From: Liolophura sinensis
Lineage: Eukaryota > Mollusca > Polyplacophora > Chitonida > Chitonidae
Length of the DNA: 64,000 nt
NCBI RefSeq assembly: GCF_032854445.1
Contig: NC_088295.1
Span: 40,969,385-41,033,384 of the forward strand
Direction of reading: 5' to 3'
The notes beneath the pieces are model-generated. The model saw only the letters and a program-made list of their open reading frames with translations. It was not told the origin of the DNA and searched no databases. Below, one piece after another: positions 79-64,000 of this stretch. The stretch's first letter is position 1, and each line of letters begins with the position of its first letter. The position numbers and the translations under genes were made by a program.

Positions 79-577
79 GTGACACTTATGTTCCTTATCT
101 TTTCGTCTGGTGATTTATGGCAAGCACAAGGCTTATCTGTTGTTCCTAAACCGCATTGATTTGAGATTCCTTGCTGATGTTCAGCGAACGGCTGTACTGA
201 CAGCCTTGACTTATTGGACAAGGGCAGGTAATTACATTAAATGGAGATTGCTCTGATGTTGGTTTGGGACCTCCTTTCTTTATACTGGACTGCATACTAA
301 TACTAAGTATATCATGCTTAAAGGACAAAAGACATTCGATTCCTTTTTTTCCATCAAAGTATTTTGGAAAACCAGTGTGGATCGCCACACAATTTCCATT
401 TTTTTGTTAATTTTGGTTAAAAATGAGATAATAATCTCCACATACAGAGGTAAATATGACATGCCAGTGGTCACAGGAAGCAAAGAATCCATTGTGCTTT
501 GCCTAATGACAATATGTTTAAAAACTTCTCTTATGAGTTATAATTTAATAGTTGAATTAAATTATTGCTGATTTCAG

Positions 578-3500
578 AACCATTACAAGCTTTCCTGAAT
601 AAAGAATTGTCAATGACATCCCGTTATGGTGTAGCTCCAATGCGACCAGAGAGAACACAGAGTGCTAAGGGAAGACTAGAAACACCCTTTGATGCAATCC
701 AGAACAGAGAATTTTGTAACCACCTCAATATTAATGGAATTAATGATGGAAGCTCAGAAGCAAAGAAGACTCATTCCTCTACAGTCAAGATATTGCCTCG
801 CAGACCTTTGTCAGCTGTTTCAAGCAAGGCCAAGTCACTGGAGGAGGATCGAAAAAAACAAAGGCCCAAGAAAAACGCATCAAAATGTCTGAAGGCGAAG
901 GCGGATCTCTCTGATGACAGTGGGGATATGTTTAAGTTTGAAATCCAGGGTGCATCGATTCAGAATTCTTCAACAAGAAATGCTGATAACTCTCAAAAAT
1001 CCAGTCAAAGCAATACAAGTAATTGTGCAGAGGATGTACATGCTGGGTGTAACAATAATGAGAAGGAACAGCCCAAGTCTAGCGCACTTTGGTCGAGTTT
1101 AATGCAGAGTGAAATAGGTGACCTTGTCAAAGAATCATGCGTGCAGATCAGTGAAGGTGACAGTTCATGTTTTCTGACTGCAGTGAGAGATGAGCCTGAA
1201 GATGATTCAGAAACTGTCCATGTCCATATGCCTGGTGATTCTCGATCAAGAAGAAGCAGAAAGAGCAGTAGGAGTAGAGCACTGAGGCATAGATCTGCCA
1301 CAAAGAGTGACTGGTTCAGTGTAAAACCTTGTGTGTATAACATGGAGTTAACAGAAGAATCAGCTGACAGTTCAAATGTCAGAAAGGATGAAGGTGACTT
1401 TCCTTACAAACTGAATGCACAACCCAAGGCTGAAACATCAATTGTGCCCGTAGTCAGCGATTTGGTGGAGGATATGACCTTAAAGTCTCACCTAGGAAGG
1501 TAGGCTAAATATGGGACAAGTAAAGTTTAGCAGTCTGTGGCAAATTTTCATTGAAATTCGCAAGTCCTGCCTCCTTTTAAGGCATGAAAAGGTATTATAA
1601 AACAAAGAATGTGGTTTTAACAAAAATGGAGGAAGATATGCATAAAAAGTTAGAAAAAAATTTATATGTCTTAATAACCCCTCTGTTTTATGCATATTTT
1701 TCAGTGATGTCATTTTGACACCTATCACTCTTGATTTCACCACAGCAGGCTACTTAATTTATGGACTGACCACTATGGATTTAGAAAAACTGTATAAACT
1801 GTTTACATCCATTTTTACACCCAAAGAAGAAATCTGAGATGCTTTTTTGTTTTTGTTTTTTTTTTTTTTGATTGGTGTTTTACGCCGTAATATTTCACTT
1901 ATATGACGGCGGCCAGCATTATGGTGGGTGAAAACCAGGCACAGCCGGGGGAAACCCACGATCATCCGCAGGTTGCTGGCAGACCTTCCCACGTACGGCC
2001 AGAGAGGAAGCCAGCATGAGCTGGACTTGAACTCACAGTGACCTCATTGGTGAGAGGCTCCTGGGTCATTACGCTGCGCTAGCGCGCTAACCGACTGAGC
2101 CACGGAGGCCGCCCCTTTTTTGTACTTTTATATGTAAGACCATGTTCTAAACTCCATATTAAGAATTAAAAAGTAAGTGTTTCATGCATCCTTCAACTAA
2201 TTTGTCAAAGTTAAATTGCTATAAAGTGCATCAACATGTAGTGTAGACATTAAGATAAAAATTATATTAATTTAATAAGCACCTCATGGAATTGATTTGG
2301 GCTATTTTTTAAATTTAATTGAAAAAATGGACAATATGATAATAAATTATTAATTCTTTAAAACTAAAATCATTGTCACATAACTTCTTTGGACTGTGTT
2401 TTGAAGAAAACTAATGTATATAATTATTTAAATGAATAAGACCATGTATGTAACATGAAGTCATGTATGGTCCTTCAGTGACATTGTTTTGTTCATTGCA
2501 TGGTAGATCAGCAACTCCTCCACTTACAGACCTAACTAATGTTGTGAAACTAAAATGATGTCTTGTTATCCTTGGAACATAAATCATTCAGATAATAACA
2601 ATAATATTTGTTGAAAAAGTAGTGGGTTAAAAACATTAACTACTGACCAAGCAAAGGAAATGAAGATTGTCATTCAGAAAGGAAATCATAGACTTGAAGT
2701 AACTATGCATTGTTTCTGCATTGGGACCAATTTGTTTGAAGGATTCATTTTAGCAATATGACTAAAATAATGCTGAAATTCTAGTGAAACTCCCAATAAG
2801 ACAAGACAGTAATCATATTGTAATCATCATTCATTAATTTTATTTATGTTTTTTTGTTGTTGTTTTGATCAGACCAATCCCACAAACCCTTGTACCTTTG
2901 AAGGAATTCATCCAGGTGTGTTCTGCAGAGAATGAGAAAAAATTACAGTGTTTAACAGGAATAAACTCTGACAACTGTCTGGTATTTCTGCCTGACTTAG
3001 ACACCTATGATTTAGCCATCATAGATGAAGTACCGTCTGTACAGCATGTGGATGATGACCTACCCTACAAAGAAAGAGTTGTCTCCCCTAAACTATGGGT
3101 ATGGCTTAATCCAGTTTGATATTAAGCTACTTTAGTGTGCAAACATCTATGTCCTAAAGGCAAGGTGAAGTGATAACGATTGAGATTGTCGGCATTGCTT
3201 TCTTAAATTGTAGAAAATATGCATTGTGTTAAAGCCATTGTTATCAGTTCGAGAGGATAAGATGGAAACAAAAGTTTTCTGCCGTTTCCACATTTGTCTG
3301 GTGTGACGTCATGTAAGGACGTATAGCATGAAATGAGGTAGTAATTTCAAACGCGCATGACATCATTCCAGCTTAACTGCCTTACTCGACGTCACATCAG
3401 CCTGATTCATCGTCACATAGGGAGTATTATTACGTCACATCAGGAAAATTTTACAGAATTTGCTGAGGATTTTGTTTCTTAGATATCTTCACTTATTGCG

Positions 3501-9190: not shown

Positions 9191-12100
9191 ATGACATCTT
9201 ACAAGCTGTATTATTTCAATTACCCGGCGAGAGGGGAACTTCCCCGAATCATCTTGTTGGCTGCAGGACAGAACTTTGAAGATATCAGGTTTTCCAGTCA
9301 AGAATGGCCAAACTTCAAAGCAAGTTGCTACAGCAGAACAACCTACAGTCACCCATGCATGTCGCTCATCAAGCTCTGTGCCTCATATGATGACACAGCC
9401 TTCATTTTGTAAATGGGTTACGTTTAGGTAACGTATTATATTGTACAAAATGCAAAGATCTGGAACCCCTTGAACATTCTATTAATAGAGCATTCTGCTT
9501 AAGCATTGTAATGTATAAGATGTGTTAAGTTTATGACAACTAGAAGATGGTATATGCACATTATACTGAACACAGGTTAACTAGTATACATGTATATGGT
9601 CGAATGCAGGCCATGTTGCCTTTCCAACACCAATGTCGTGTTTGGCGTTTTAGCGTCGAATGTTGAAGATGCTTAAACGCTGGAAAATGACAGGCCCTAC
9701 TCGTAATTACATGTATATAATACATGTTGTTATCTGTGGCCCGAAACGATCGAAGGATATCCAAATAGTCGGCCGTTGTCCATCCGTCTGCTCTTCCAGG
9801 CGCCCAATTAACTGAACCACCCAGCTGCTGACCGACTGTATAGCTGCTGTATTATTATGAATGTCGATTCCCAACATTACACCGATTCGCATCTCGGAAC
9901 AACAGTGATTAACCTAAGCAATTATTAACTGGTCATTTCCAGCTATCAAGTATTCTTTGTTCACCGGTTTGAAAAAATGCTGTCCCATATTCTATTATAA
10001 GTAGGTCTACATACATTTATATACACGTATGGATAGGAAAACGCCTCTTCTCATCAAGTTCCTGGCAAATTTACTTACTTAATACTGCTGCCTAACCAGT
10101 ATGATTGGCATTTTTTCGAATGCTGGACCTCACTTTTTTTCACGGATACTAGTGTTGAATACAATTTATACCTAAACGTTTTAATTTTAGGTAAACTTTC
10201 TGGCTTGAAATGGGATAATGAGAACTCCTCATACAATGAATGACCCATTTAATTGTGAATAAATTGTGAAACATATCGCTTCATGCAGTTACTAGTTTTA
10301 TGACAGAAACATGTACCTATTCTCAGCTTGTTGTATTACCTACAGTTCCTGCGCATATCACCGCCTTTTTTCAGAGATGCCGTTTGATCAGGTGTCCGTC
10401 CTGGAGGTAGACGGCCAGATGATCGCTCAAGAATACGCCATCTCTAAATTCCTGGCCAGGCAATTCGGTATTTGAATTTATGGAAAATAATATGGGAAAT
10501 AAATGAAAGACTTCGTATCTGATTTTAATCTATCGAAATGCGTTATTTATTTGTTTGTTTTTTTATTTATTTATTTGATTGGTGTTTTACGCCGTACACA
10601 AGAATATTTTACTAGTACGACGGTGGTCAGCATTATGGCAGGACGAACCTGGGCGTTGATTAAGGCAGTAACTAAGGTATATAAATTTCAAATATTCTTC
10701 CTAACGCAGTAATAGTTTATACATCATGTAATGTACGCTAAGGTCATGAATGTATAAATGTATTCAAACTCATCCTCTTGTTTCTTGTCAAATTTTCACA
10801 AAACTTTTTCCAATTAATTTTTCATCTACTGGACACAAAACGATAATTTTACAGGACATAAGTCACTTTGATGGGGAATATCGCTATTCGTCCCCAAACA
10901 TTATGGATTTTTTCGTCACCGGCAAGAATTTTTGTTTGCCGTGAGATGATTCTTACAATCAGTATATATAATAATGAATTCTTTTCAGGTTTCTGCAGTA
11001 AGGACAACATGGAGCATGCCAGGGAAGACATGTATGTCTTCTTGTCGGAGGACCTCTGTGGCGAAGTAGAGCCTTTGTTTTTCGAGAAGGACAAGGACAA
11101 GCTGGTATAGTGATTCGATTTCTCCCAATATCATGTGCTGATGTCATGGCCCTGTCTGAATGTTATGTACACGTACATTTAGTAGTAAATTACATGAATC
11201 ATATATCCTTTACAGGGTGTACTACATTTACATATAATATTTAACGATAAAAAATAAACTGATCAAAGATTGGTGTCCATTTTGGTTCCACCGGATGGTG
11301 AGTAATTCGCAATATTACTTGATATTTAATTCGCCAGTCAAAATGACGGAATCTTTATAATTAGGTTTCTTAGAATTCTCCCAACAATCAACAACAAACA
11401 GATCTAAGTGGGAAGATTTGCTAAAACAAGTAATAGAAGTTTGCATACCAACCGTCAACCTGAAAAGAAAGTTGACAAACCTATTATGTTGGATTCCCTT
11501 CCCTTTGTAGGCAGTGATGATGAAAAAGTTTGTGGAACAGACTGGCCCCAACATACTGTCCAGACTGGAGACCGCCTTAGGTAACTGTACATCTGGTTAC
11601 CTGCTTGGTGACAAGGTATGTACGGCCAAGTTGTGGGAGCGTCCGCACCAAGTCGGGGGATCTGGGATCACACCCAGATCTGGTCATACCAAAGGCCTTA
11701 GACATGGTACACGTTGCACGTTGAAAAATTGTTCAATACCCGTGTAAAAACCCAAGCATAGATATATGTACATACGTACATGAAAGACTTATTATAGTTG
11801 ATGAGGGGCCTCCGTGGCTCAGTTGGTTACCGCGCTAGCGGAGCGTAATGACCCAGGAGTCTCTCACCAATGAGGTCATTGTGAGTTCAAGTCCAGCTCA
11901 TGCTGGCTTCCTCTCCGGCCGTACGTGGGAAGGTCTGTCAGCAACCTGCGGATGGTGGTGGGTTTCCCCCGGGCTGTGCCCGGTTTCCACCCACCATAAT
12001 GAAGGCCGCCGTCGTATAAGTGAAATATTCTTGGGTACGGCGTAAAACACCAATCAACTAAATAAATAAATTATAGTTGATGACTAGGGATATAAATGGT

Positions 12101-18300: not shown

Positions 18301-21300
18301 CAGTCCCAAACATTCCGTGGCCAATAAGCTTTGGTGCATACCTGGCCCAGCCTGTGAGAAAGGAGCCATAAAAATCTTGACATAGGTTGACCGTCAAAAT
18401 CTGGACCTTTCTATGCTGGCAGCTGGGAGGGTGGCCAGCAACGGGTGTCCTCTCGCCCAGAATTTCAAACTTTCATCATTAAAACTCATACCTGCCGAGA
18501 GCTTAGACAATTTCCATCATTTTGATACCAAGCATGCACCTGTACACCAAAAACGACAGGCTGGCAGCAAAAAAGACTAAAATACACAGAATTACATTAC
18601 TCCCGAAAAACAGAAGTTGTAATGGGGGTTTGTGTCCTACTGGATGGAATGGAAGCGAATGCTCTACGTCTTTAATTGTATTTCTTTGCTTCCTGTGGTT
18701 TCTATTGCACCCCAATGCTCCCTGACTCTTCTATTCCAGTGCTTCCATTGCTCCTCGACGCTTCCATTGGCGCGCGATGCTTAATGCATCGCTTTTCGAT
18801 GGATCCATCGGCCCTTGATGTTCAATTCTTAGCTGCCCGATGCTTTCATCTCTACCCGATGCTTCTATCACTTCCCGATTCTTCCATCGGAGCTCGATGC
18901 TTAATACATTACTCCTCGATGCCTAATCCATCGCCACCCGATGCTTCCATGGCTCCCAGATGCCTCTAAAGCTCTCAGTTCCGAATCAGGCCAGTTGTAC
19001 GATGTCTCTGAATGTGTGAATTCATTTTTTTTATATAAATCAGGTAACCCCAGTCATTACCAGAAAAGAATGTAAAAGGCGTGCTTTTTCCCGATTATAC
19101 AATAATCTTATCTCTCAGGGCGGTATTGGGAGACGGGTGGGGACGATGAAATCTTAGGGGTGGGGGTGATGAAAGAATTGGGGAGGGGTGATGTGAACTA
19201 GTCTCGTGAGGCGAAAGAATTTGAAGCAGAGTTGCAGACAAATTCGGAGGGCGAGGAACGATAGACGTAACGGTGGGCGATATTACACTCATATCGAAGG
19301 AGGGTGGAGGAGGGAGGCGATGACAAGATCGTTGTGCTAAGCGATGTTGCTGCGATGTGATGTAATGATGGCCATATGTGAATTCCATACTGTTTCCAAT
19401 AGCAAACCATGAAGGAAATTTTGCACAACGTTATAATTATGGACGGGAATGCAACACAGAATGACTCGACTGGTAGATCTATATTGTCGCCCGTGTCGGT
19501 TACATATAAAATCGTAATCTGTAGGATGACAACATTACATCCCTGCCAACATTTGGAAATAAAGCATGAGATCTTAGTCATCATAGATCTGTTATTATAC
19601 ACACGATATAAATCGAAATATCAAAATTAACTGTCCGTATAGTCAAGCTCTGAGTCTTAGGCTTTGAAGAACAATGAAATGTTAAGCACCCTGTATACTG
19701 TGCTTGTTAATAATTAAAGGTACAAATTAAAAGTTCAAATTGTTCATTATTGGAGGGCATCAATCAGAAATGTCAATCACGAGGATATATAGTCTCTGAA
19801 ACGAACCAGTGGCTGTCGTCCACGACTGGAAACTCGTGGTTGAACTGATTCATCATGACTGTGAGCGGGAGTGGCATCATCAGCAAGGTCGTCGTCATCA
19901 AGGTCAATGTCACTGATGTGATTGTTGGTGGTAGTATCTGAACATGTGTTATTAGATCTCAAAACTTTCATAAATGATGAGTTTCTGGTGATAGAGTGAT
20001 CTCCATGTTTAACGGTGATCGTTGATCCTTTCACTGCGTGGACTCTATACGGGTTGGAGCTGAACAGAGGTTTAAGTTTACCCTTTTTCTGGTTGCGTTG
20101 TAGTACGATATCACCAACACGAATGGTCGCTGACTTAGCCTGTGCGTGAAGATCAACATAATACTTCATTCTCTGTTTGGCGCTATCGTCTTTAACCTGG
20201 ATGTCGGATTGAGATACTGGTTAGGCAAGTTGTGGTAAAGTTGTGCGGTACGGTTTGTTGAATAATAGTTCAGCAGGTGGTTTGTCAGTTGAGCTGTGGG
20301 GCGTTGCACGGTAACTCCTTAAGAATTTGTATAGTTCCTGTTTCCATGGCTTTCCTTCAGCTTCAGATGCACGCATGGCTTTCTGTAAGGTCTTGATGAA
20401 CCTTTCTGCATCACCATTAGCTCTTGGCCAGTACAGCGTGATTCTCCGATGTTTGATAGCTAGGTAATCGAGGAACTGGTGAAACTCTGTACTATTAAAT
20501 GGAGGTCCATTGTCATTTTTCAAAACTGATGGTATACCATGTGTGGCAAATATCTTGTCAAAGGCGGGAATGGTGGATCGCGCAGAGGTACAAGACACCT
20601 TTTCTACTTCAGGGTAACGGGAGTATTCGTCATAGACAATCAGTAAGTCTCCAGAGGGTAATGGCCCAACGAAATCTGCACAGACGTTTTCCCATGGTGC
20701 TTGCGGGAGTGCAGTCATCTTGAGCGGTTCTCGACGGGAAGAGTTTTCAGAGGTTACGGCCTGGCACAGGATACAGTTATGAATGGTTGTCTCCACGAGT
20801 TTATTGATACCAGGGAACCAAACCTTTTGACGAAGCAGTTTCTTTGTTTTGACAATACCTTGATGTCCAACGTGGGCGAGGTCGCACACTCGCTGTTGAA
20901 GGCAGGTTGGTACCACAATGCGGGAACCAAACAGGAGGATATTTCCGTCAGAGTTTACTGATAACTCAGTGTGCACTGTAGCAAAGAACTGAAGCTGTCT
21001 TGCTGTAGCGCTGTCAAACTTTGCGTTAACATTTGGTTTGTAGGCAGATTTCCATTTGTTGCCTTTAACTAAGCCCATTACAGTTCGCAATAGTGGATCG
21101 GCCTTCGTGGCGTCTTGAATTTTTGCGAGTGTTAGCGCTTTCGGAACTGCATGCTGCGTTAGAAAGTTTATGTGTTCCTCAGCCATCTTTTCTTCACAGC
21201 TTGGAGCGTCTGGTGACTGAACAGGGTGTCTGGACAGAAAATCAGCTGGATTGTCATGTCCTGGGCGATATGTTATGTTGTACGAGTATCCTTGAAGCTT

Positions 21301-24300
21301 TAATATCCAGCGTTCAATTCTCGCAGGAGGTTTCGAGCTGGCTTTGTTGAACAATAAAATCAGGGGTTTGTGGTCTGTAACAACTGTAAATGTTCGTCCA
21401 TAGAGACAGAGATGATTGTGCAGTATTCCCCAGGTAAGACCAAGTTCTTCACGCTCTGTTTGACTGTAGCGTTGTTCAACAGGCGTGAGACATCGACTGG
21501 CATATGAGATTATCTTGGTGTGGGAAGAGTCTTTCTGAGTGAGTATCGCTCCGAGTCCTACGGGACTTGCGTCAACTATGAGTTCAACAGGTTTCGATGG
21601 ATCATAATAGGCTATAACACTTTGGTCAGTTAGGCCAGCTTTAATGTCCGTAAATGCCTTCTCTTCTGCTTGGGTCCAGAAGAACACTGTGTTTTGTCTT
21701 GTTAGATCACACAGTGGCTTCGACAAGGTCGCAAGATTGGGGATAAAGCGAGCACAATATTGTACCATGCCGAGGAAGCTTTTAATTTCAGTTGCATTCG
21801 GGTGGTGTTTTTGATGGCTTGCACTTTCTGTGGATCAGGAGAAAGACCATCCTTTGTGAACAAATATCCGAAGAATTCAATCCTCGATTTGCTGAATTCA
21901 CATTTCTCACGGTTCATAGTGAGGTTAAGTGCTCGCATGCGCTGTAAAGTTGCCACAAGTCGTTGATCATGTTCTTGTTGGTCACGCCCATGGAGAAAAA
22001 CATCATCACTAAGGTTAATAACGCCTGCTAGTCCTTGAAGAGCCATTTTGATGTGGTTCTAGAAGACTTCGGCAGCTGAACACACCCCAAAGTTCAAGCG
22101 TTTGTATCTGAAGAGACCCATATGTGTAGAGAACGTTGTGAGGCTGCGGGATTCTGGGTGAAGTTCGATTTGGTGGTGACCAGCATTCAAGTCGAGTTTG
22201 GAGAATATCGTAGATCCATTCAGTTCAGATATGATATCAGAGTGGGAGTTATGTGTCGTTCTCGCTGAATTGCCTCATTTGGTGCGCGCATGTCAACACA
22301 AATTCTGATCTGAGATGGATTTTTAGGTTTCTTGACTACACGGATAGGGGACACCCATGGTGTGAGTACATCACCAACTGGTTCGATATTGTCAAGTTCA
22401 AGTAGTCGTTTGAGTTCTGCTGTCGTACGTTCACGCAGATTAAACGGGAGACATCTGTGGTGGTGAGCGACGGCTTGAACACCTTTCAATTTACCAAGTC
22501 CAGTAAAGCAATCCTTGTACTTAGACACGATTTCATTGGTAAGCGATGTAGGACTGTATTGTATTTCACAAACACACTCTGTGATATTAAGAAGTCCAAG
22601 ATCCACGCATATGCTGTAGCTGAGTAGAGTGTCGCAATTTCTTGGTGTGATGTAGAAGGTTGTTTGCACAGATTTATTTCCGGCTGTGACAGTTGCTGAA
22701 AATTTACCTATTTCTAATGACTGACTAGTGTTATAGGCAAATATCTGCGGTAATTTGTCCATATCACGTGCAGGCTGTGGAGTAAGCTGTGTGAATGTTG
22801 TCTCACTCAACATGTTTACAGTAGCACCTGTATCGATTACAGCTTGGAGTGTTTTTTCGTTGACAGCGACAGTTACTATTGGTTGTTTTGTGAAAATTCC
22901 ATCACTGTGACCGTACACGCTGAATACATATTCATCATCTGAACTAGAGTCAGCAAGGTGTGCAGCGCTTCTGACTTGCTTGACAGATTCAAATTTGCCA
23001 GTGTCATGCTATTGACGTTTTTTCTGTCGGCAAACGGATTCAAAGTGATTAAATTTATGGCAAAATCCACACGCCTTTCCCTTAGCTGGACAGGTTTTTC
23101 CTTCTGGGTGGGGATATGTTGAATTCTGCTGGAGCTACATCCCTGTATAAGCTGGCCTTTGATTTCTCTGTCTTGATCCGAGAATTGGCATGTAAGGGCT
23201 AACTGGAGCAGGCGTGTAGCGTACGTGTCCATTGTTTCGCCTACGTTATGCTTAGTGCTGCGAAATACGTATGTTTCATAGTCAATGTTTCGTCTGGGCT
23301 TGAAGTGAGCATTCAGTTTCTCTAGAGCTACTTCTAGGTCCTCACCTGTGTCCGGTAACGTATCCAGAATATCACTGACTTCTTCGCCGGCGTAATGGAT
23401 TAACAGGGCTCTTTGGCGCTTTTTATTTGCGATATCCATAGCAACTAGAAGATTTTGGAAATGTCGGACACATTTAGTCCATCGTTGAGCTATTGATGAA
23501 GGGTCACTGTGCACGTTGAACGAAGGCAATGTCGGCAGTGACTGGGCCATCGTTATGTTGTTGTTGCAGCCGCCTGTGATGTGCGCCACAATAGCTGAGT
23601 GGAACAAAAGTGACGTAAAATTCACTGGTTTAGAGTTATTTTTCAGTAAAAGGTTAATTCCTGCGTGTTTTCCGAGTCACAAAATGTCTTACTGATAACG
23701 ATGTGTCCATTCTCGTCGCCAAATATAATGTTGTGGGTTGTAATTATGGACAGGAACGCAACACAGAATGACTCGAATGGTAGATCTATATTGTCGCCAG
23801 TATCGGTTACATATAAAATCGTAATCTGTAGATTTGACAACATTACAAACGTCATGTTCAGCCGATGAGAAAACGAAAAACACTTTCTTAACCTACTTTT
23901 CTGTTATCACTTGATGCCTTCCGCTTTGCCCAGAGTGCGCACAGCTTGGTTGCAACAGAAAAAAGTAAAGCACTATCTTTATGATGTTGAACAGTTCGCC
24001 CATAATATCACCTGGTCTGTCACATAATAAATTAACATTTGAGTATAATATGATTACACATACTCGTTGATATTATGAGCGCAAGGGATCACTCAAAAAC
24101 GCCAGCTCATTAACCAATCGGCCAGCGCTCTATTTCTTTTTTAAATTCTGTTTTATTCTTATTTTCCTGTTATGTTGCAAGAATGCACTGAAGCAAGGTA
24201 GGCCTAGGCCTATAGCTCATAAAATCGAAAGATTGGTAGCTTGCTTCAGTAATACTGAAATATCTTTTTTTGCATTAGACAAATGTAACTTTCAGAAAAA

Positions 24301-27300
24301 TTCTTGAGCACGAATTTATACACCGATCAATTAAATACATGCATATATGATGTTCAGCCTTCCGTTACTCAAAACATGCTAATGTTAATGGCAGCTAGAG
24401 GACATGTGCTCCCAAGCCGGATTCACGTATAATTTCGCTATAGTTGCCACACATTACGTAATACCATGGCTTAACAATTATCCATTCTAATTCATGATAA
24501 CATTTACTGAATGCAGTACAGCGTACATCTCTACTCACACAAAAAGTATGTTGCTAAAGAAAAAAAATAAAAACACTTCCTCGAAGTAAAACCCTGTTCT
24601 TGAGTATGACTTGGTTAGTTCACTGTACTATGAAGGATGTCTAACATGCCATCATGAATTCCAGCGTGACGGAATCACATTTGCAAAGGTGTCGCGGTTC
24701 TTTGATATGCGCTACAACGTTACCGCACACTGATCAGAACAGAAACTTACTGTTTTTAACAACGACAGTGAAATTCCCAACATTTTATTGAGAAACCTGT
24801 GTCATATACCGGATTTTTTTTATAGGCCGGAGTTCTGAAATCTCCGTGACGGGATCACATGACTTGGAAGTGCATTCTGTACCACTAGTACATTTCACCC
24901 AAAATGTGCGAGCTGTGACCAGGAATCATGCAAACAAAGTATTCATTGGCAGGCGCCAATGAACTGCCGAGGTATTAGAAGCTTTTTGTATAGAAAACAG
25001 ACCAAACAAGAAAAAAAAACTGAGTATACCGCTGTGACGGAATCACAAAATTATCGTGACGGAATCACGAGTACGATTTTATCATAACTATGGGAATAAA
25101 ATTAGTTCTCGCAATTATTCGATACATTTATTTGAATTTCATGCTGGACAAATTATCCTTACCACCCAAATAAACGTCTTTAATCGGATACCACCTTAAC
25201 TATAAACAGCAACAATGACAAATTGCACTCTGAAGATACCAAATTTAACATGTATTTAGGTTATGAGATGGGTGAGTATACACACATGCAATAAATTCTT
25301 AGAAAATGATTTCATCTGTATCATTGTATTTATCCGTACAATTATTTCTGAAGAGCGTAGCACAACGACAGTTGGGATTAGATACAGAGTTCGCATGTGA
25401 ACAGATCATTGTCATCAATAATGCCACTATCTTCAGCGCATGACTCGTGAAACCATCTATCACAAGGACATTTCAGCCAATCTTCCGCCTTTTTCGGATC
25501 ATCGGAAGAGCCAAAGATCCAGCCACATTTCGCACATGGATACTCCACATTTCTGGCTGAAAGTTGGGCAAGGGGAATATCATCAGATTCAGATGATGGT
25601 TCCTGGTCAACTGCCTCTGTCTCCGATTCATGCCCGGCATCAGATCGCTTGGCAATGTTGTGTATCTTACTATCCGGTGCTGAAGTGTAGAATTTTGATT
25701 TAGTCATTCCAGTCCCACATGTGGTAACATGATGAATGTTGATGGTACCCGGAACTGTTGGCGTCGTTGACCAAACCGTGTCAAGATCAAGCTGTGAACA
25801 CCTGTCATCTATATTCTGCTGAGTCTGTACGGTCACCTGAATTTGCTGAGTGGCAGACATCACTGCTGTGGCAAATGATCCTGCGTCGCTGACGACTGCT
25901 TGTCTGTTCAGAACTTTTCTCTGCACTATTCGTTTGACATTTCCACCGAGTCCATCATTCGGGCCTTTGCCATGACTGGTTGCAGAATAGTTCCAAATGA
26001 TTTTGAGATCGAGTTCACGCTCTAGTTCCCCAATCAGCGAAAAGATGTACCTGTTTTTAAACTGGCTACTAGGTCCATCTGTCTACATAAGCACTGTCTT
26101 CACGTAGGGAAAGTGTTGTTTTATCTGCTTCAGAGCTAAATATGTATATGTTGATACTGCTCTTTTTTCGTGTTCTTTCACATCTGAAACAATCACTGAC
26201 GACCTAATAACGTCTCTTGCCCATGTCATGATGGTGAATATAGAGAGCTGTCTCTGTCGCCAATGGGCCGATTGTATTTCGTCTTGAAAAGATGCCGTAA
26301 AATTTTCGGCAAAGTCCATCTGGAGCATACATGTTGTGCTATCTTGGTGTTTAGCAATAGCTTTATCTTGCTTTGGGGACAGCTGTAAGGTGTGCCTGAA
26401 CCTGACGGTGTCTCTGTACTAGTCACAGTGGTGTCCATATTCCTTTCCCTCCATGCTCGGGTATTCAGCATTGTTTTATTTCGCAGAGTTTCCAACTCAG
26501 CAGTTGTCATCCGTGCCCTCCGCGCCTGCTTCCGTAGCCTGTCATTCTCTTGGTACAATTCCAATGCTTCAGCATCACTTTTCAATCGGTTCCTTCTATC
26601 CCTCTGTCGTTCTGCGGCTGATTTAGGCATGCTGCAATATAACTAGATTGAGCTTTGAACAGATACATAATTGTTGTTATAGTTTGTTTGTATTAATCAA
26701 ACAGGCCTATTTTTTAACCTCAGATTTGTTCAATGTGTACTTTTGTCATCATATATGCTAAACGGAGCTTTTTAAAATTGCACAACAATACCGTATTTAT
26801 ATTCTAATTAAGTCCTTCGCATTGTAAAGCGAAAGTGACGGAATCACATATTGGTAGTGATTCCGTCACACGGTTTGCGTGATTCCGTCACGGTTATGTG
26901 GGATTTGTATTTGTCGTTAAACTCTCGATTTTTTATGTAAAAGACCCTTAACACCGACTTGCCTTTGTATTTTAATCCTCCCTTTAGTAAGACTACTGCA
27001 TGAACTGCAATATTTAAAAAGTAGCACTTTTCGTGACGGAATCACCAAAATCGCACGAATAAACAAGGATATTCACGTAAACTTTTGGCTAGCTAAGTTG
27101 CTTTTTGAACGAATGTTTGACAAAATAACATAAAGTGTGAATTTATCTACAAAATGAGCCATAAATTAGGGCTGAAAACTATTACCTTGCTGAAGATGGG
27201 TCCAGATTAGCGACTGTAAAATCTCACCATGCGTACGCCGGCCTCGTGACAAAGGCCTACAATTTCCGGTTGAAGTTTTCAGCACGCGTAAGACAAATAC

Positions 27301-30300
27301 CTCATGCATATTCAAAAGCTACAGTCAATTTCAGGGCTTTAGGTAGTGCTCTGTTTGGATTTACTACAAGAGTTCCAAAAATGTTATTTTGAAATTTGGC
27401 TTCAGTGGCTCATTTTACGTGGAATTCATGCCATGGCAGAAATACGGATTTTAAAGTTGACAAAGAATGACAAAACTGATCACATTATAAAGTTTATTTT
27501 TTACATATGAAGACAAACGTTAATCGAAACGAAACTTTAACAGCATGTATAAATACACGAAGGAAAGTTTCAGTAAAAGATATTTTTCCGGTTAACGTTG
27601 ATCTTCATACTATAAATTAAAAACACAATGCCTGGTCTGAACGAAAAAATGGCGTCTTTGATCGAGAGTGCATTTTTGGAGGGTTATTACTAAGAAACCA
27701 TCTCTTCTCTGGCCATATAACTTTCATGAGTGCTTCGAGCAAGTTTTGTATTTCTGATTCGGAAATTTATAGAATTGTGCTAAAATTTAGAAATTAGCAC
27801 TTTCTTATCGTACGTCTCTGGGGCCGATTCTCCGCCTGACAGTACCAGGTCCTTTGAAGCGTTAACTAACACGATGGTCGCAAGTATACTAGCTGACCCA
27901 GTCCTACTACTGAAATTGGATGTTACGTTTAAATGCTTTCATACTCCATTGCTACCTTTCAGAGATGCCGTTTGGTCAGGTTCCCGTCCTGGAGGTAGAC
28001 GGCCAGATGATCGCTCAAGAATACGCCATCTCCAAATTTCTGGCCAGGCAATTCGGTACTTTGCACAAGTATTTGTGTTTTTGAAATAAATGCTTCTTTA
28101 CCTAGCTTGAACCGTATTTTAATCTATGTGTGTGCTCGTAAGACTCTTTCACATACAAGGCCCCTTTATAACACGGCATATATTCACTCACTTATAAGTA
28201 CTTTGTATCCAGTGTTTCTGTCTATCTTACCAATATGTGCAGTCCCTGAAGTACGAATAGATGTTATATTTTTGAGCGCTTTGGATCATGCATTGGTAGA
28301 TACCAGAACCCTTAGAGAGGCTTGAGCTTACGTGGAGAAGAACGTAGGAGGTACACGTATATCTCTCATAAGAGCATTGCTTTGGTGGTGGGAAAATGTT
28401 TCCATAAGAAATAAAAATGCCTGGAAAAAGTTTCCCTTGGCACATGCCATTTCTAATCATGAATGCCTGTAGGAAGGAAACTAAGTAAACATGAATTGTC
28501 ATTTTCTTCAGGTTTCTGCAGCGAGGACAATCTGGATCACGCCAGAGAGGATATGTACGTCTTTTTGTCTGAAGACATCTATGTCAAAGTGGAGGAAATA
28601 TTCCACACGAGAGACGATAAGGAAAAATCGGTACTGCACACCTCTTAAAGTGGGGTTTAATTTTACCTGAAATTTGTCGATATTTAGACAGAATTTGAAA
28701 CTGGAGATATCAATTTCAAGTGTTTTCAGATTTATGTATATTCTTCTGTATTTTTCTGGTTATGCCATCGTGTCGCTTTGTTCTTGTCACGACGTATATA
28801 TAGTTCTAGCAGACATGTCTTCCTTAGTTTCTAAACACATGTTGAGACGTATTTCTTAGTTTATACACAATACACATGAGTGAGTAAGTGAGTGAGTGGC
28901 TAGGGTTTAACGTTGTAGTGAACAATTTTTCAGTCATATATCGAAGAAGGAGTCCTTAGAGTGCATGCACGTGTAATGTGCCTCCCTGTTGCAGGACGGA
29001 TTTCCACCGCTCTTTTATCTAGTGCTACTTCACTGAGACGACTTACCGAAGCAAAGGAAGCTGTCCCACCCGAGCCATTACACTGATACGGGTCAACCAG
29101 TCATTGCACTACCCCCTTAATGCTGAACCCATGCAAGGAACCTACACTTCCTCTTTTATAATGTGACCCGACTAACGGTCACCCCGGATCTGCCGTCCCT
29201 GAAGCGGACGCTCTACCAACTGGGCTAACCGGATGTTTGTCTTAAACTGGCTATATAGCATAAAGCATAGAGCGTAAAACCAGAGCAGGGACAACAGTTT
29301 GATAGTTGACAAATGGTAGGTAACAAGTAACCCTATGAAATACGGCTTTTATTTATTTACCTCAGGTAGGGTTTTATTCTAACAATTCATGTAAAAAAAA
29401 AATGGTAGCAAAGAGCACGCATCCTATCAGCGTGGCTTAAGCACATTGAGGTGAAACAAATTCTATTGATGTTAATTGCAATTTATCAGCTGTCACTGGC
29501 CTAGAATTGCTAAATTATAGGACTCATTATATAGGTGTCGGTTCAATACTAACCTCTAACAAGGAATCATCGGTATCCCTTCGATTCCGTACACTATTCC
29601 AGAGGCTTTAGTGCATGGCCATAAGCAATCAATGGCGGTATTTATTTATTTGATTGGTGTTTTCGTCATACTCAAGAATATTTTACTTATACGACGATGA
29701 CCAGCATTATGGTGGGAGGAAACCGGGCAGAACGCGTGGGAAACCCACAACCATCCGCAGGCTACTGGAAGACCTTTCCACGTACGGCTGGAGAGGAAGC
29801 CGGCATGAGCTGGACTTGAACTCACAGCGACCGCATTGGTGAGAGGCTCCCGGGTCATTACGCTGCCCTAGCGCGCTAACCAACTGAGCCAGGAGGCCCC
29901 TCCCTCCACCCAACCCCGCCATTGGCGGTAGTATGGCCGTTTAGATTGTCGCACACGGTGAAATTTGCGGGAGATCACTTGCCCTCCTCCATTGACTCGA
30001 TGGGTACACGGATTTCACGGACTTATAAACCCCAATAAAAACGATCAATAAATATAATTTACCACATATAAACAAATAGAGAATATTTGAAATGTTAAAC
30101 TGTATTCGTGCTAATAATTGCAGGAAGCTTTGAAGAAAAAGTTCGTCAATGAAACCGGCCCTGTTATGTTGTCAAAACTTGAACAAGCGCTGTCCAAAAG
30201 TGCATCAGGCTATCTGGTCAGGGGCAAGGTATGTGGAAGTCAGTTTTCTAAACTAATTCCTGAATTATTACATCTTCCTCCAAATTTACAATTTCTACAT

Positions 30301-37689: not shown

Positions 37690-38455
37690 AAATTGAAAAG
37701 AGCCATGGAGAAACCATCCAAGCACATTTTTAATCGCACCATACCTGTCCATATGAACCGAACAGATCTTTGGGGGAAACATCCCAGAACAATTTTAGTC
37801 ACGCCATATCTGTCCATACGAACCGAACAGATCTTTGGGGAAACTATCCTAGAACAATTGTAGTCACGCCATATCTGTCCACATGAACAGAACAGATCTT
37901 TGGGAAAACCATAACAGAACAATTTTAGTCGCGCTACATCTGTCTATATAAGCCATACAGATCTTTGGGGAAACCATCCCAGAAAAATTTTAGTCACGCC
38001 ATATCTGCCCGTATGAACCGAACAGATCTTTGGGGAAACCATCCTAGAACAATTTTAGTCGCGCTATGTCTGTCTGTATGAACCATACAGATCTTTTGGG
38101 AAACCATCGCAGCAAATTTTAGTCACGCCATATCTTTCTTTATGAACCATACAGATCTTTTGGGAAACCATCGCAACACATTTACGTCACGCCATATCTG
38201 TCTATATGAACCATACACATCTTTGGGAAACCATCGCAGCACATTTTAGTCACGCCATATGTGTCTTTATGAACCATACAGATCTTTTGGGAAAACATCG
38301 CAGCGCATTTTAGTCACGCCATATCTTTCTTTATGAACCATACAGATCTTTGGGGGAAACTATCGCAGCACATTTTAACTCACGCCATATCTGTCTATAT
38401 GAAACATACAGATCTTTTGGGAAACCACCGCAACACATTTACGTCACGCCATTAC
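37690..38455. repeat. about 64-bp minisatellite, about 12 copies
   Basis: Each unit contains GAACCATACAGATCTTTGGG, AAACCATCGCAGCACATTTT and AGTCACGCCATATCTGTCTA. Units vary in length by a few bases. Confidence 0.92.
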
Positions 38456-42600: not shown

Positions 42601-45468
42601 AGATTTTTTTTTGTATTCTGAATACTAAGAAAAAAACACTTCTTTGTAAACAGTGGCTATACAACATTGGAACATGTCGCCTTCATTTTGGCTATAGTCC
42701 AGAATTATTGGGTCAAGGAAACCGAACAAGAGAACCAAAAACTATTCGCAGGTGCTGGAAGGCTTTCCCAGCATGAGGATGGGTTGGAACACGAAACGGT
42801 CGCTTGCTAACCACTCGGCCACGGATGCCACTCTAACCAAAAAGTTAACAGGCTGGAGTCAAACTTTCCCTGGTTTAATAGCGGGCTTAAATCGGGACGT
42901 TTGTCAGGTACCTGGAGAAGGCCGGTGACGTGATTAGGGGGATGACTCCGGTTTCCTCTCCCATATATTCACGAACACGGCACTAAGTGCCATGCAGTAT
43001 AGCGTTATACCTTCATTTAACAGTACTACACAGTTTGGACCCTGGTATTCTCCAAACAAATTATCTTCAGTAAACCACTTTAATGCAGTAACTAAAGGCG
43101 TGAATTAAATTGTTCAGTGACAGGCACTCGGTAAGAAATTTCCATCAAATTCATTACCTGTGTTATAAATGTCTCTTGGCTTCATTTACAGAAATGCCCT
43201 TCCGACAATTGCCTGTTCTAGAGGTAGATGGGAAGCAACTCTCACAGAGTTACGCCATTGTGAGATATCTGGCCAACGAATTCGGTAAGTTGGGACGTAT
43301 ATATGCTGGGACGGTTAACGCTGCTTTGATCGGAATCATTTTGGCTAGTTTGTGTCAAAATAAACTAGGGCGTCTACGCTGTATCTTAACCAGTCTTGTT
43401 GTGACCAGTATACGGCAGTTTTGGGTGTTGGAAACAAATTCAAAGCACTCTGTTAATCCTCTTTTTCATTGATAAGAGGCGCTTTGCACATAACGCCAAA
43501 TGGAGTTAAATAACGTGTCTAAGAATTCTTTCCAAAAAGTTAATTGTGGGACGAAATGTGGCAATGTTAGAATTCCAGCTGCAATACATATATACAGTGA
43601 ACTTATTTTGTTAATAACGCATTGGTCCTTGTTTAGCGTCAAAAATGAATGAGTATTTTCCGTACAATTGCTGACAGGTTTGGGCGGTAAAAACAAATGG
43701 GAAGCAGCCGAGGCGGATCAGTACACAGGAGCTATCGAGGATTTGTTTGTCGCGACTGCAAGGATACATTTTGAAAAGGACGCGTCTCGAAAGGTATGGG
43801 TAACTTGTGGAAATCCTCCAGCCCACATTAGCCACGTATATTCTTCTGTTCTCTTTCTTAGAACGTCACACGTTTTTGTGTAAGTGTAAACTTCACATTC
43901 ACTGCAAAGTCACAGCAAAAACTAAAAACTGCCGTGTTTTCGCGTTGCAGGGTTGGGCCATCTTGACCTGGCCGTTTAACGTTTCCATTTGTGAGACAAG
44001 TTTGAACAGTGAAGGCCATAGCTTGACAATGATTCTTTTTCAAATTTAGAATATATGTTGTTCCTTTACCCGATTTTATGACGCAGTACATTAAACGGTT
44101 CACGAGCAAAACGTCAGCAAATTGCCAGTTGCCAAATACAAGCTACAAGCACAGTTTTTTTCCGGTGTATATAAATGTTGCAATGGTATTTTATCATATT
44201 TTCCTAAATTACTGTATGTATATAGCCTTCCTGTAAAGGTTGAAATAGTTCATGAAGTGGGCAGAGGTTTTGATATAGTGATATATTATGCAGAAAGTTG
44301 ATGGCGAACATAGTGTTTGTGAGCTTTGCGGGGATTACAAGTGGGTTGTAGTCTCTATTCAGAGCTCACACATTTGGATATTATATTCCACTTGCTACTT
44401 CGTTATCTTTCATTGAGGGCAAGAAGATAAATGTAAATTCCGTCGAAAACAATTAGACATCGGCATATGATTTTGTTTCTCAATATTTCTTTGTCAGGCT
44501 GAGGATTTAAAGAAGTATAAGGAAGGGACTGCCTCTGGTTTTCTCCAACCTTTTGAGGCAACATTGGCGAAAAGTAGCTCGGGTTTCTTGGTTGGCAGTG
44601 GGGTATGTATATTGTAAAACATTCCATAAATTACTGAAGGATTTTCATGCATTAAATCAAGAAGCTCACACGCTCAAAAACCTCAGTCCTGTCCATTACA
44701 TTTAAAATTGAGACCCTGCATCACAGACCTAACCATGAATTGCGCAGACCTGATTTGGTCAGAAAGAACGTAAGCCTGCACATGTGAACAGACATACTGA
44801 GCTTTATGCAGAGTTAAAGGAATCGTGTGGACTTAAAAATAAAAGAAAAATAATGGTCACAACCCCAGAAAATGTGTAGTCATCTTCAGTCTGAATGTGG
44901 ACACATCACATCAGATGACAAGTCTGTTTACAAGTCTGTTTTTAACCATGCATGTCGCACTTACACGTAAGGTTGACGAAGAAAAAGAAAATCTTGTTGA
45001 ACTTCTTTAATGACGATGCTATCAGTTTAATGATCGTGAGTTCTTTTGCTTACCCTCTGTGACAGTATACACATACTATACTTAAGACAAAAACTGATAT
45101 AAAATTCAATTGTAAAAATGACCCATTTCAACGAAATATCAAAATTTCTCGTCAATCACGGGATCCTCGCCTTCTAAAACAAAATGGTGTGAATTCATGT
45201 AGTTCCTTAACTACAGCGTCCTTAGACACCATAATTACACCTTTCATCTATTTAAGGAACTAGTCCAATTCGATTCTGTTTTACATTTCAGTTGACCTAC
45301 GCGGACCTTTGTTTCTTCAACTTGTTGGGATTCATGGAAGGCATGCTGAAGGAGGACGCCAAGGCTATTACATCCACGTTCCCAAACATCCAGAAGCATC
45401 GTCAGAAAATAGAGTCTTTGCCAAAAATTGCTGAATGGATTAAGAAGAGACCGGCTAATGATTTCTAG
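39620..45468 (+). CDS. GST gene C, sigma-class-like glutathione S-transferase, 207 aa
   Basis: Five exons join in frame: 39620-39752, 43192-43284, 43678-43793, 44498-44602 and 45292-45468 (stop TAG), all with GT-AG borders. The protein starts MPTYKLTYFPLRARAEPARL, close to squid sigma GST and S-crystallin N-termini, with the catalytic Tyr expected at 8. The glutathione site is complete: cis-Pro in QLPVLEVDG and the QS pair in LSQSYAI. The helical domain has GGKNKWEAAEADQY and LTYADLCFF. By these residues it should be a working glutathione-conjugating or prostaglandin-isomerising cytosolic enzyme. Its nearest relative is gene D. The only clear TATA box of the array lies 94 bases upstream of the ATG. 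Intron 1 (about 3.4 kb) holds SINE copies but no other gene. Confidence 0.95.
40800..41055 (-). mobile_element. SINE (family 1), intron 1 of GST C
   Basis: TTTATTTGATTGGTGTTTTA, GGAGGAAACCGGGCAGAGCC, AAGACCATCCGCAGGTTGCT and a worn head ending at CTTGGCTCC. Nearly full length, moderately diverged. Confidence 0.82.
42720..42832 (-). mobile_element. degenerate SINE head and middle, intron 1 of GST C
   Basis: GAAACCGAACAAGAGAACC, TATTCGCAGGTGCTGGAAGG and TTGCTAACCACTCGGCCACGG follow the family 1 order from middle to tRNA-like head. The tail is lost. Confidence 0.6.
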
Positions 45469-49598: not shown

Positions 49599-57630
<8,032 letters not shown>

Positions 57631-63279: not shown

Positions 63280-64000
63280 AGATGAATAAAAATGATACAA
63301 GCAGTCATGCTCAGACAATGATGAATGAAAACGATACAAGCACTCATGCTTAGGCAATGGTGAATGAAAATGATAAAAGCGCTAATGCACAGGCAAAGAT
63401 AAATGAAAATGATACAGGCACTCATGCTCAGACAATGATGAATGCAAATGATACAAGCACTCATGCTCAGGCAATGATGAATGAAGATGATACAAGCAAT
63501 CATGCACTGGCAAAAATGAGGGAAAATGATACAAGCAGTCATGCACAGGCAATGATGAATGAAAATGATACCAGCATTCATGCTCAGGCAATGATGAATG
63601 AAAATGATACCAGCAATCATGCACAGGCAATGATGAATGGAAATGATACAAGCAGTCATGCACAGGCAATGATGAATGAAGATGATACCGGCACTCAGGC
63701 TCAGGCAATGATGGATGCAAATGATACAAGCACTCATGCACAGGCAATGATGAATAATAATGATACAAGCACTCGTGCACAGGCAAAGCTGAAGGAAAAT
63801 GATACAAGCACTAATGCTCAGGCAACGATGAATGAAAATGATAGAAGCACTCATGCTCAGGCAATGATGAATGACAATGATACAATCGATCATACTGAGG
63901 CAATCAGGCAATGATGAATGAAAATGACACAGGCACTCAAGTTCAGGCCATGATGAATGCAAATGATACAAGCAATCAGCACAGGCAATGATGAATGAAA
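63280..64000. repeat. 39-bp minisatellite, at least 18 copies, running off the window
   Basis: Tandem variants of GATGAATGAAAATGATACAA plus GCACTCATGCTCAGGCAAT. The 39-base period equals 13 codons, so both strands stay open over long spans (+ 63357-63914, - 63195-63971). On the + strand the peptide unit is MNENDTSTHAQAM. No splice signals or signal peptide support a gene, and its place in intron 1 of GST E suggests a plain minisatellite. Confidence 0.88.

Follow-up and report, generated by a model that had tools for sequence, protein, structure and literature searches.

The ends of Tn7 and of phage Mu contain several recombinase sites of ~22 bp, arranged asymmetrically at the two ends. Among other DNA transposons, hAT elements create target site duplications (TSDs) of 8 bp, CACTA elements also have TSDs of 2 bp, and piggyBac and Kolobok elements use TTAA as their target. 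In the excerpts available of the relevant papers, Sola elements are described as having a 4-bp TSD, terminal inverted repeats (TIRs) of 11 bp or more, a size of 2 to 9 kb in most cases, and a DDD triad (PMC10741241), with Sola2 showing TIRs of 12 to 21 bp and an AT-rich 4-bp TSD (PMC3627910); Sola1, Sola2, and Sola3 have been reported from bivalves (PMC10294476). Several transposon superfamilies are known to have subterminal repeats. In the CACTA case described, these motifs vary in number, size, and sequence, are required in cis, and are bound by a protein encoded by the element (PMC2613891). For the hAT superfamily, Hermes is described as an octamer in which several BED domains contact the left end extensively (PMC10368747), and Ds as having an 11-bp TIR and some subterminal repeats (PMC3260210).

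The window analyzed here, a stretch of 64,000 bases, contained exactly eight matches to the 13-mer GTGACGGAATCAC when both strands were scanned with up to two mismatches allowed, seven of them exact (Table 1). Shuffled windows averaged 1.08 matches and had at most 5, none of 100 reaching eight, and no match at the same threshold was found in the rest of the 64-kb window outside the element described below. The earlier note had reported eight copies, one with a single change, four on each side of a gene and none within it, and the scan reproduced this layout, with the gene on the minus strand. The reported 22-bp spacing was exact between sites 3 and 4 (starts 25034/25056) and between sites 5, 6, and 7 (26835/26857/26879). 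The description of the motif as a 13-bp quasi-palindrome held only for its outer letters: in the form GTGA-N5-TCAC only GTGA and TCAC pair, hence the palindrome is a short one with arms of 4 bp.

Table 1. Features of the transposon in the window and words repeated in its relatives
Feature	Position or loci	Strand	Basis
Left TSD CCAT (ATGG on other strand)	24649..24652	.	comparison with genomic copies
Whole element, 2778 bp, internal-deletion derivative	24653..27430	- (gene)	ends common to other genomic copies, flanks differ
TIR CATGAATTCCA, 11 bp, tip 3' of gene	24653..24663	+	ends common to genomic copies
Site 1 GTGACGGAATCAC	24666..24678	+	motif scan; start 13 bp from first element base
Site 2, one change (GTGACGGGATCAC)	24846..24858	+	motif scan
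Site 3	25034..25046	+	motif scan
Site 4	25056..25068	+	motif scan; 22 bp from site 3
Third coding piece: TDGPSSQFKN, SHGKGPNDGLGG, C-terminal part	25378..26082	-	reading frames, alignment
PHD-like Cys/His finger, weak profile support	25381..25539	-	PHD_NSD E 0.1, PHD E 0.35
Third Asp codon (SHGKGPNDGLGG)	25954-25956	-	
Second Asp codon (TDGPSSQFKN)	26077-26079	-	
In-frame TAG stop within catalytic region	26083..26085	-	reading frames
Second coding piece: QMDFAEN (first Asp, codon 26314-26316), EIQSAHW	26083..26394	-	reading frames
First coding piece: basic N-terminal region MPKSAAERQRDRRNR..., off gene's frame beyond deletion junction	26226..26630	-	
Internal deletion junction	26372	.	break in L033 alignment, element base 1720
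Predicted 5' intron, would hold sites 5-8	26632..27185	-	donor AAG/GTAATA, acceptor TTGCAG/CATG, by eye
Site 5	26835..26847	+	motif scan
Site 6	26857..26869	-	motif scan
Site 7	26879..26891	-	motif scan
Site 8	27033..27045	+	motif scan
TIR CATGAATTCCA, tip 5' of gene	27420..27430	-	ends common to genomic copies
Right TSD CCAT	27431..27434	.	comparison with genomic copies
Word GTCAACTACGTTAC	L055, L056, L058, L059		repeated-12-mer search, flanking letters added
Word GTCAGTGGTGTTAC	L063, L078		repeated-12-mer search, flanking letters added
Word GTCATTTCCGTAAC	L080		repeated-12-mer search, flanking letters added
Word CCACTCCGTTACC	L060-L062, L071		repeated-12-mer search, flanking letters added
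Word GTCATCTACGTCAC, scattered	L072		repeated-12-mer search, flanking letters added

The genome searched (G000; 609 Mb in 632 contigs) contained 140 exact copies of GTGACGGAATCAC compared with 13 of the reversed control. Loci were drawn from 100 of these 140 sites, and the 22 that were examined held 126 of the 140 copies. The 13-mer is thus not randomly scattered, and the many copies found in the genome bore out the proposal of a transposon as opposed to a single-copy host gene. Together these results support a multicopy DNA transposon of which the 13-mers form part. With up to two mismatches allowed, eight sites were present in 14 of the loci and seven in L041; the diverged copies L044, L070, and L079 had six each and L069 had three, while the fragments L043, L045, and L046 had two, two, and four. 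We considered whether the sites belong to a host DNA-binding protein and are exploited by the element as an enhancer, insulator, or silencing nucleator. Dimeric transcription-factor sites have a short half-palindromic form, which GTGA-N5-TCAC resembles. However, the 14 copies of the 13-mer left outside the 22 loci correspond to the chance level set by the reversed control, and subfamilies within one host use different words, as described below, so that we regard exploitation of a host protein as very unlikely.

The ends of the element were poorly defined by the window alone, the score of the first end search being attained by 20 of 100 nulls. The best pair of ends was CATGAATTCCA together with CCAT; its summed score was matched by 55 of 3,000 nulls, and 14 of 3,000 had a TIR of at least 11 bp with a TSD of at least 4 bp. 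These ends were taken as valid only once other genomic copies agreed. The tip beside site 1 (with one change in L044) was common to all 12 aligned copies, which differed from one another from just outside it onward, and the second tip was seen in 11 of the 12, all except L034. Both tips, with at most one mismatch per tip, were present in 17 of the 22 loci, and an exact 4-bp TSD flanked 15 of these 17; in L036 and L042 it fits only with a one-base shift. TSD sequences among the copies were ATGG, CACA, CTTT, TATA, AGTA, AGAT, AATT, ATAG, AAAA, ATAT, and ATAC. No TSD was readable in the five loci without one or both tips (L034, L043, L045, L046, and L070), and six single-site loci (L047 to L052) were left out of this tabulation. 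An empty site was identified for the sister copy L035, namely an unoccupied repeat in L075 with 89% identity over 287 bp and a single CTTT at the junction. It was thus from other loci in the genome that the ends, the 11-bp TIR, and the 4-bp TSD were defined, and the span of 24666 to 27045 given previously had to be extended on both sides to 24653-27430, plus the TSDs. Copies of the window's own subfamily were 97 to 99% identical to the window copy, which indicates that it moved recently; in the same alignment search it had no nucleotide match in L034, L044, L070, or L079, which are diverged copies.

Several observations were made on the surroundings. The flank to the right of the insertion (27564-27847) was 74% like the joined flanks of copy L068, and both copies may have inserted into copies of one older repeat. 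L038 and L037 have TATA as their TSD and lie in surroundings of tandem or repeated units, and their joined flanks match neighboring units across the junction. A retrotransposon with gag-pol-like frames, by reading of the letters, lies just left of the element on the minus strand (19198-23855) and has 111-bp matching pieces near both ends (92%). The transposon is positioned upstream of an exon-like piece at 27957-28089, which together with pieces at 10369-10412 and 43104-43472 may represent duplicated glutathione S-transferase genes (27957-28000 and 10369-10412 are 93% alike). Long tandem arrays occupy 37706-38452 (unit, 65 bp), 56986-57319 (44 bp), and 63281-64000 (39 bp). Beside the transposon relative in L072, there is an open frame of 278 amino acids (188-1021, minus strand) that may encode a phytochelatin synthase.

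The transposase-like gene reported earlier is on the minus strand, and a deletion and the TAG stop at 26083-26085 break its frame. The distance between sites 4 and 5 was 1,779 bp in the window and 2,525 bp in the longer copy L033 (3,537 bp in total), 746 bp fewer in the window, and as a result of the deletion the catalytic part of the gene is no longer in frame with the N-terminal part. The same span as in the window was found in L035 and L036, and nearly the same span in L065 (1,778 bp, based on the 12-mer) and L037 (1,761 bp). Judged by its reading frames, the window copy is a broken, internally deleted, non-autonomous derivative. L033 is also broken, near the first catalytic Asp, and relatives with long open frames are present elsewhere in G000. 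In a second deletion class of ~1.9 kb (L038 to L042 and L066 to L068), the catalytic core is gone and an N-terminal frame of ~230 amino acids is kept, some copies having it uninterrupted and others having it broken by stops. Both deletion classes, which lack different coding parts, retain the sites and the tips.

These findings bear on whether the sites might instead be transcription control elements, bound by a host factor or by the N-terminal protein of the element so as to turn the transposase gene on or off, and having no direct role in cutting. Sites 5 to 8 sit 205 to 415 bp upstream of the ATG, in the predicted 5' intron (L034 and L044 have donor-like letters at the matching position in the alignment), and the ~230-amino-acid frame retained without the core in the 1.9-kb class could encode a repressor; as a speculation, such a protein might repress the full transposase. 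On the other hand, four of the eight sites are downstream of the gene, one of them 13 bp from the tip, deletion copies unable to make a complete transposase retain their sites, and sites in decayed copies are lost at the neutral rate, as detailed below. Control of transcription as the explanation for the array therefore seems unlikely to us, although sites 5 to 8, which would lie in the predicted intron shortly before the start codon, may have a second, regulatory role.

A DNA pattern for the HGKG...DG.GG block gave 22 matches in genome_contigs, with one clear relative, L013, which was picked up by this protein-coding pattern alone, without reference to the sites; 20 of the 22 were judged to be chance matches. 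A lake-metagenome contig, L007, contains pieces like VNEDWAEKF...QSQYWAQ and GHGKGVWDGLGG (tblastn E value of 0.001) and may hold a distant relative of the transposase. Scans of viral_contigs and of the plasmid collection found no relative. L013, an unrelated contig of 4 kb that is listed under a bacterial metagenome-assembled genome although probably of eukaryotic origin, has an intact 690-amino-acid reading frame that was 33% identical to the window protein over 261 residues (E value of 4e-38). The L013 protein (P0003) had at least 65 matches in G000. An alignment of ten sequences exhibited three conserved Asp residues (D365, D445, and D486) and a conserved His before the third, as well as a basic N-terminal region in the aligned relatives wherever that part was present. 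In 35 rows, not all of them independent since some loci occur twice (L054 is L033 and L057 is L034), Asp was conserved in 26 of the 30 residues read at D365, 31 of 35 at D445, and 31 of 32 at D486. The block SHGKGPNDGLGG, previously singled out as catalytic-core-like, holds the third of these residues. By conservation, the relatives would therefore encode a transposase-like protein with a DDD triad.

The C-terminal end of the protein varies. The PHD-like finger proposed for the window's subfamily showed a weak resemblance to PHD_NSD (13.4 bits; E value of 0.1) and PHD (11.4 bits; E value of 0.35), but both scores are under the curated Pfam cutoffs of 23.9 and 24; the finger also matched the JARID1A PHD in the PDB with an E value of 0.045. 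L013, L055, L063, and L064 have another pattern, which on our reading of the letters would be Tudor-like. The profile search for a transposase family brought no match: none of the Pfam, NCBIfam, and PHROGs profiles recognized the catalytic core in the pieces, the read-through piece, or the relatives, and sequence searches of the PDB with the same set gave no transposase match. Weak matches were obtained for the catalytic piece with phrog_7487 (function unknown; E value of 0.013), for the basic N-terminal piece with NCBIfam RepC_IncLM (E value of 0.0084, far below the cutoff), for the L013 N-terminal region with C/EBP-beta chains (E values of 1.1 and worse), and for 1 of 10 members with Zn_Tnp_IS91 (E value of 0.06).

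The array itself recurs in L013 with another word. Its own 13-mer, GTGTTGGACGTAC, occurs there in eight copies (up to two mismatches; three exact), four on each side of the gene, compared with a mean of 0.01 and a maximum of 1 in shuffled L013. Read in the direction of the gene, successive sites on the two sides are 154, 22, and 22 bp and then 22, 188, and 180 bp apart in the window and 155, 22, and 14 bp and then 21, 188, and 169 bp apart in L013. Four of the six intervals are equal within 1 bp, which was equaled by none of 200,000 random placements that held the outer sites of each arm fixed; the two mismatching intervals are 180 versus 169 and 22 versus 14. The pattern common to both words, GTGNNGGANNNAC, matched the window 10 times (7 being sites; shuffles gave a mean of 1.31) and L013 six times, all at sites. 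The spacing conserved in a relative with a different motif would now back the cooperative binding that had been suggested from the window. The site nearest a tip is 13 bp from it in both elements, and the first site at the far end is at 385 bp in the window and at ~364 bp in L013 if its tips are those marked by the inverted repeat GGGCAATTCCAT; no matching 4-bp TSD was found there. First-site distances of 13 and 385 bp at the two ends of one element are odd for a cleavage complex and count against the sites being docking sites for a transposase.

Differing words were also found in many other relatives by a blind search for repeated 12-mers (Table 1). L055, L063, L078, and L080 have a second type of layout, with 8 to 10 sites spaced by 190 to 192, 154 to 170, 15 to 28, and 19 to 22 bp on the 5' side and by 18 to 19, 19 to 21, and 338 to 351 bp on the 3' side. 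In the stretch of L053 that was covered, only three GTGACTCCCGTGAC-like sites were seen, all on the 5' side and 22 and 170 bp apart. By a fixed rule, a 12-mer was found on both sides of the gene in 12 of 13 relative loci (L013 and 12 from the protein search of G000) versus 0 of 25 overlapping window stretches outside the element, the 12 positive loci representing six words and so not being independent (L013; L054 and L057, which are L033 and L034; L055, L056, L058, and L059; L060 to L062; L063; and L064). The repeated-12-mer search gave no clear word in L073, L075, L076, and L083, and none in L077; several of these loci are decayed. In a tree of the core (35 rows, with L033 and L034 duplicated as L054 and L057 and the 20-residue L007 omitted), midpoint-rooted and hence approximate, members with the window layout and members with the second layout fell into different parts, some of the splits being modestly supported.

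Slippage generates repeated words, and the 22-bp pairs are close together, which would suit an array left behind by tandem or segmental duplication within the element and serving no function. Against such an origin, the DNA beside the sites is unrepeated apart from short matches, the sites occur in both orientations, and their positions are largely conserved in L013 though the word differs. Duplication without function is also contradicted by the strong conservation of the sites over background between two branches (below), and we find it hardly credible.

L033 and L034 represent two branches with a common word. Between their arms, 103 of 104 site positions were identical (99%) compared with 639 of 1,454 other positions (44%), and none of 5,000 random placements was as good. 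The same held between L033 and the decayed copies L070 (75 of 104 in sites versus 604 of 1,454 outside; 0 of 5,000) and L079 (78 of 104 versus 627 of 1,454; 0 of 5,000). When L034 was compared with these decayed copies of its own branch, no difference between sites and surroundings was found, either for L070 (77 of 104 versus 1,130 of 1,499; 3,122 of 5,000 placements) or for L079 (78 of 104 versus 1,082 of 1,499; 2,249 of 5,000). The conservation from branch to branch and the neutral loss in decayed copies indicate that the sites were maintained as long as the elements were mobile but no longer thereafter, which in turn points to use by the element rather than by the host. The common word of L033 and L034 could come partly from exchange between the branches.

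We consider it quite probable, from the sequence comparisons above, that the element is a Sola-like transposon whose eight-site array provides precisely spaced docking sites for its own transposase. In the proposed mechanism, the transposase, with its basic N-terminal region and DDD core, would bind the sites as dimers through half sites like GTNA/TNAC. The fixed spacing, with 22-bp pairs and triplets and ~154 and 188 bp between groups, would assemble both ends into one multisubunit complex, formed before cutting at the TIRs. Transposase and 13- or 14-mer would change together in each subfamily, with the geometry and the outer GTNA...TNAC-like bases largely retained, and the sites of a dead copy would decay neutrally after insertion. 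A broader proposal, which we advance tentatively and with rather more doubt than conviction, is that the transposition complexes of a whole animal transposon clade are built on a rigid framework of ~8 to 10 dimer sites, with near-fixed positions and a word replaced in each subfamily. If so, geometry and not sequence would be the conserved signal in a natural series of transposase-site pairs, and the words would insulate subfamilies living in one genome from each other. A near-constant number and spacing across very diverged proteins, with a changing word, would make transposase-site rules readable from a single genome. Such a series could yield transposases acting side by side without cross talk, and it permits a direct test of whether subfamilies of the clade avoid moving each other's deletion derivatives.

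With regard to known systems, a text search of the literature found no paper on the 13-mers or the protein block. No such array is described in the excerpts available of the freely accessible literature on Sola, subterminal repeats, and related terms. Tn7 and Mu are similar in having several recombinase sites and asymmetric ends but are bacterial. The piggyBac and Kolobok groups were set aside, as the TSDs of our copies vary in sequence, and so were hAT (the TSD is 4 bp, and no BED or hAT profile matched) and CACTA (the tips are CATGAATTCCA, and the TSD is 4 bp). The element had been left unassigned to any superfamily; this can now be narrowed to Sola-like, on the basis of the 4-bp TSD, 11-bp TIR, and DDD, but falls short of proof. 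The 4-bp TSD rests on 15 of the 17 two-tip copies and on the empty site with its single CTTT, the DDD on the conservation of D365, D445, and D486, and TIR and size on the 11-bp CATGAATTCCA and the 3,537 bp of L033. Compared by published traits rather than by protein sequence, true membership in Sola seems likely. The less likely case, a question separate from the role of the sites, is that of another superfamily, unnamed or new, with the same 4-bp TSD. The core is recognized by no Pfam, NCBIfam, or PHROGs profile and Sola is known here by description only, which would suit such a superfamily, whereas the 4-bp TSD, short TIR, longer copies of 3.5 kb, and DDD are all traits given for Sola in the excerpts available (PMC10741241; for Sola2, PMC3627910).

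With hAT, the element would share the contact of several subunits with an end, as described for the left end of Hermes (PMC10368747), and it shares the 11-bp TIR and subterminal repeats of Ds (PMC3260210). With CACTA elements such as En/Spm and Tgm, it shares a short motif repeated at both ends and differing between subfamilies, but those elements have CACTA tips, a 3-bp TSD, and, in the case described, 4 + 24 repeats (PMC2613891), whereas here the number and positions of the sites are near constant, the TSD is 4 bp, and the intact relative L013 has one long reading frame only. With Sola, it shares a DDD-type core, a 4-bp TSD, a short and variable TIR, and the size range, and it differs in its fixed array of eight or nine sites with a subfamily-specific word, which is absent from the available portion of the Sola description (PMC10741241).
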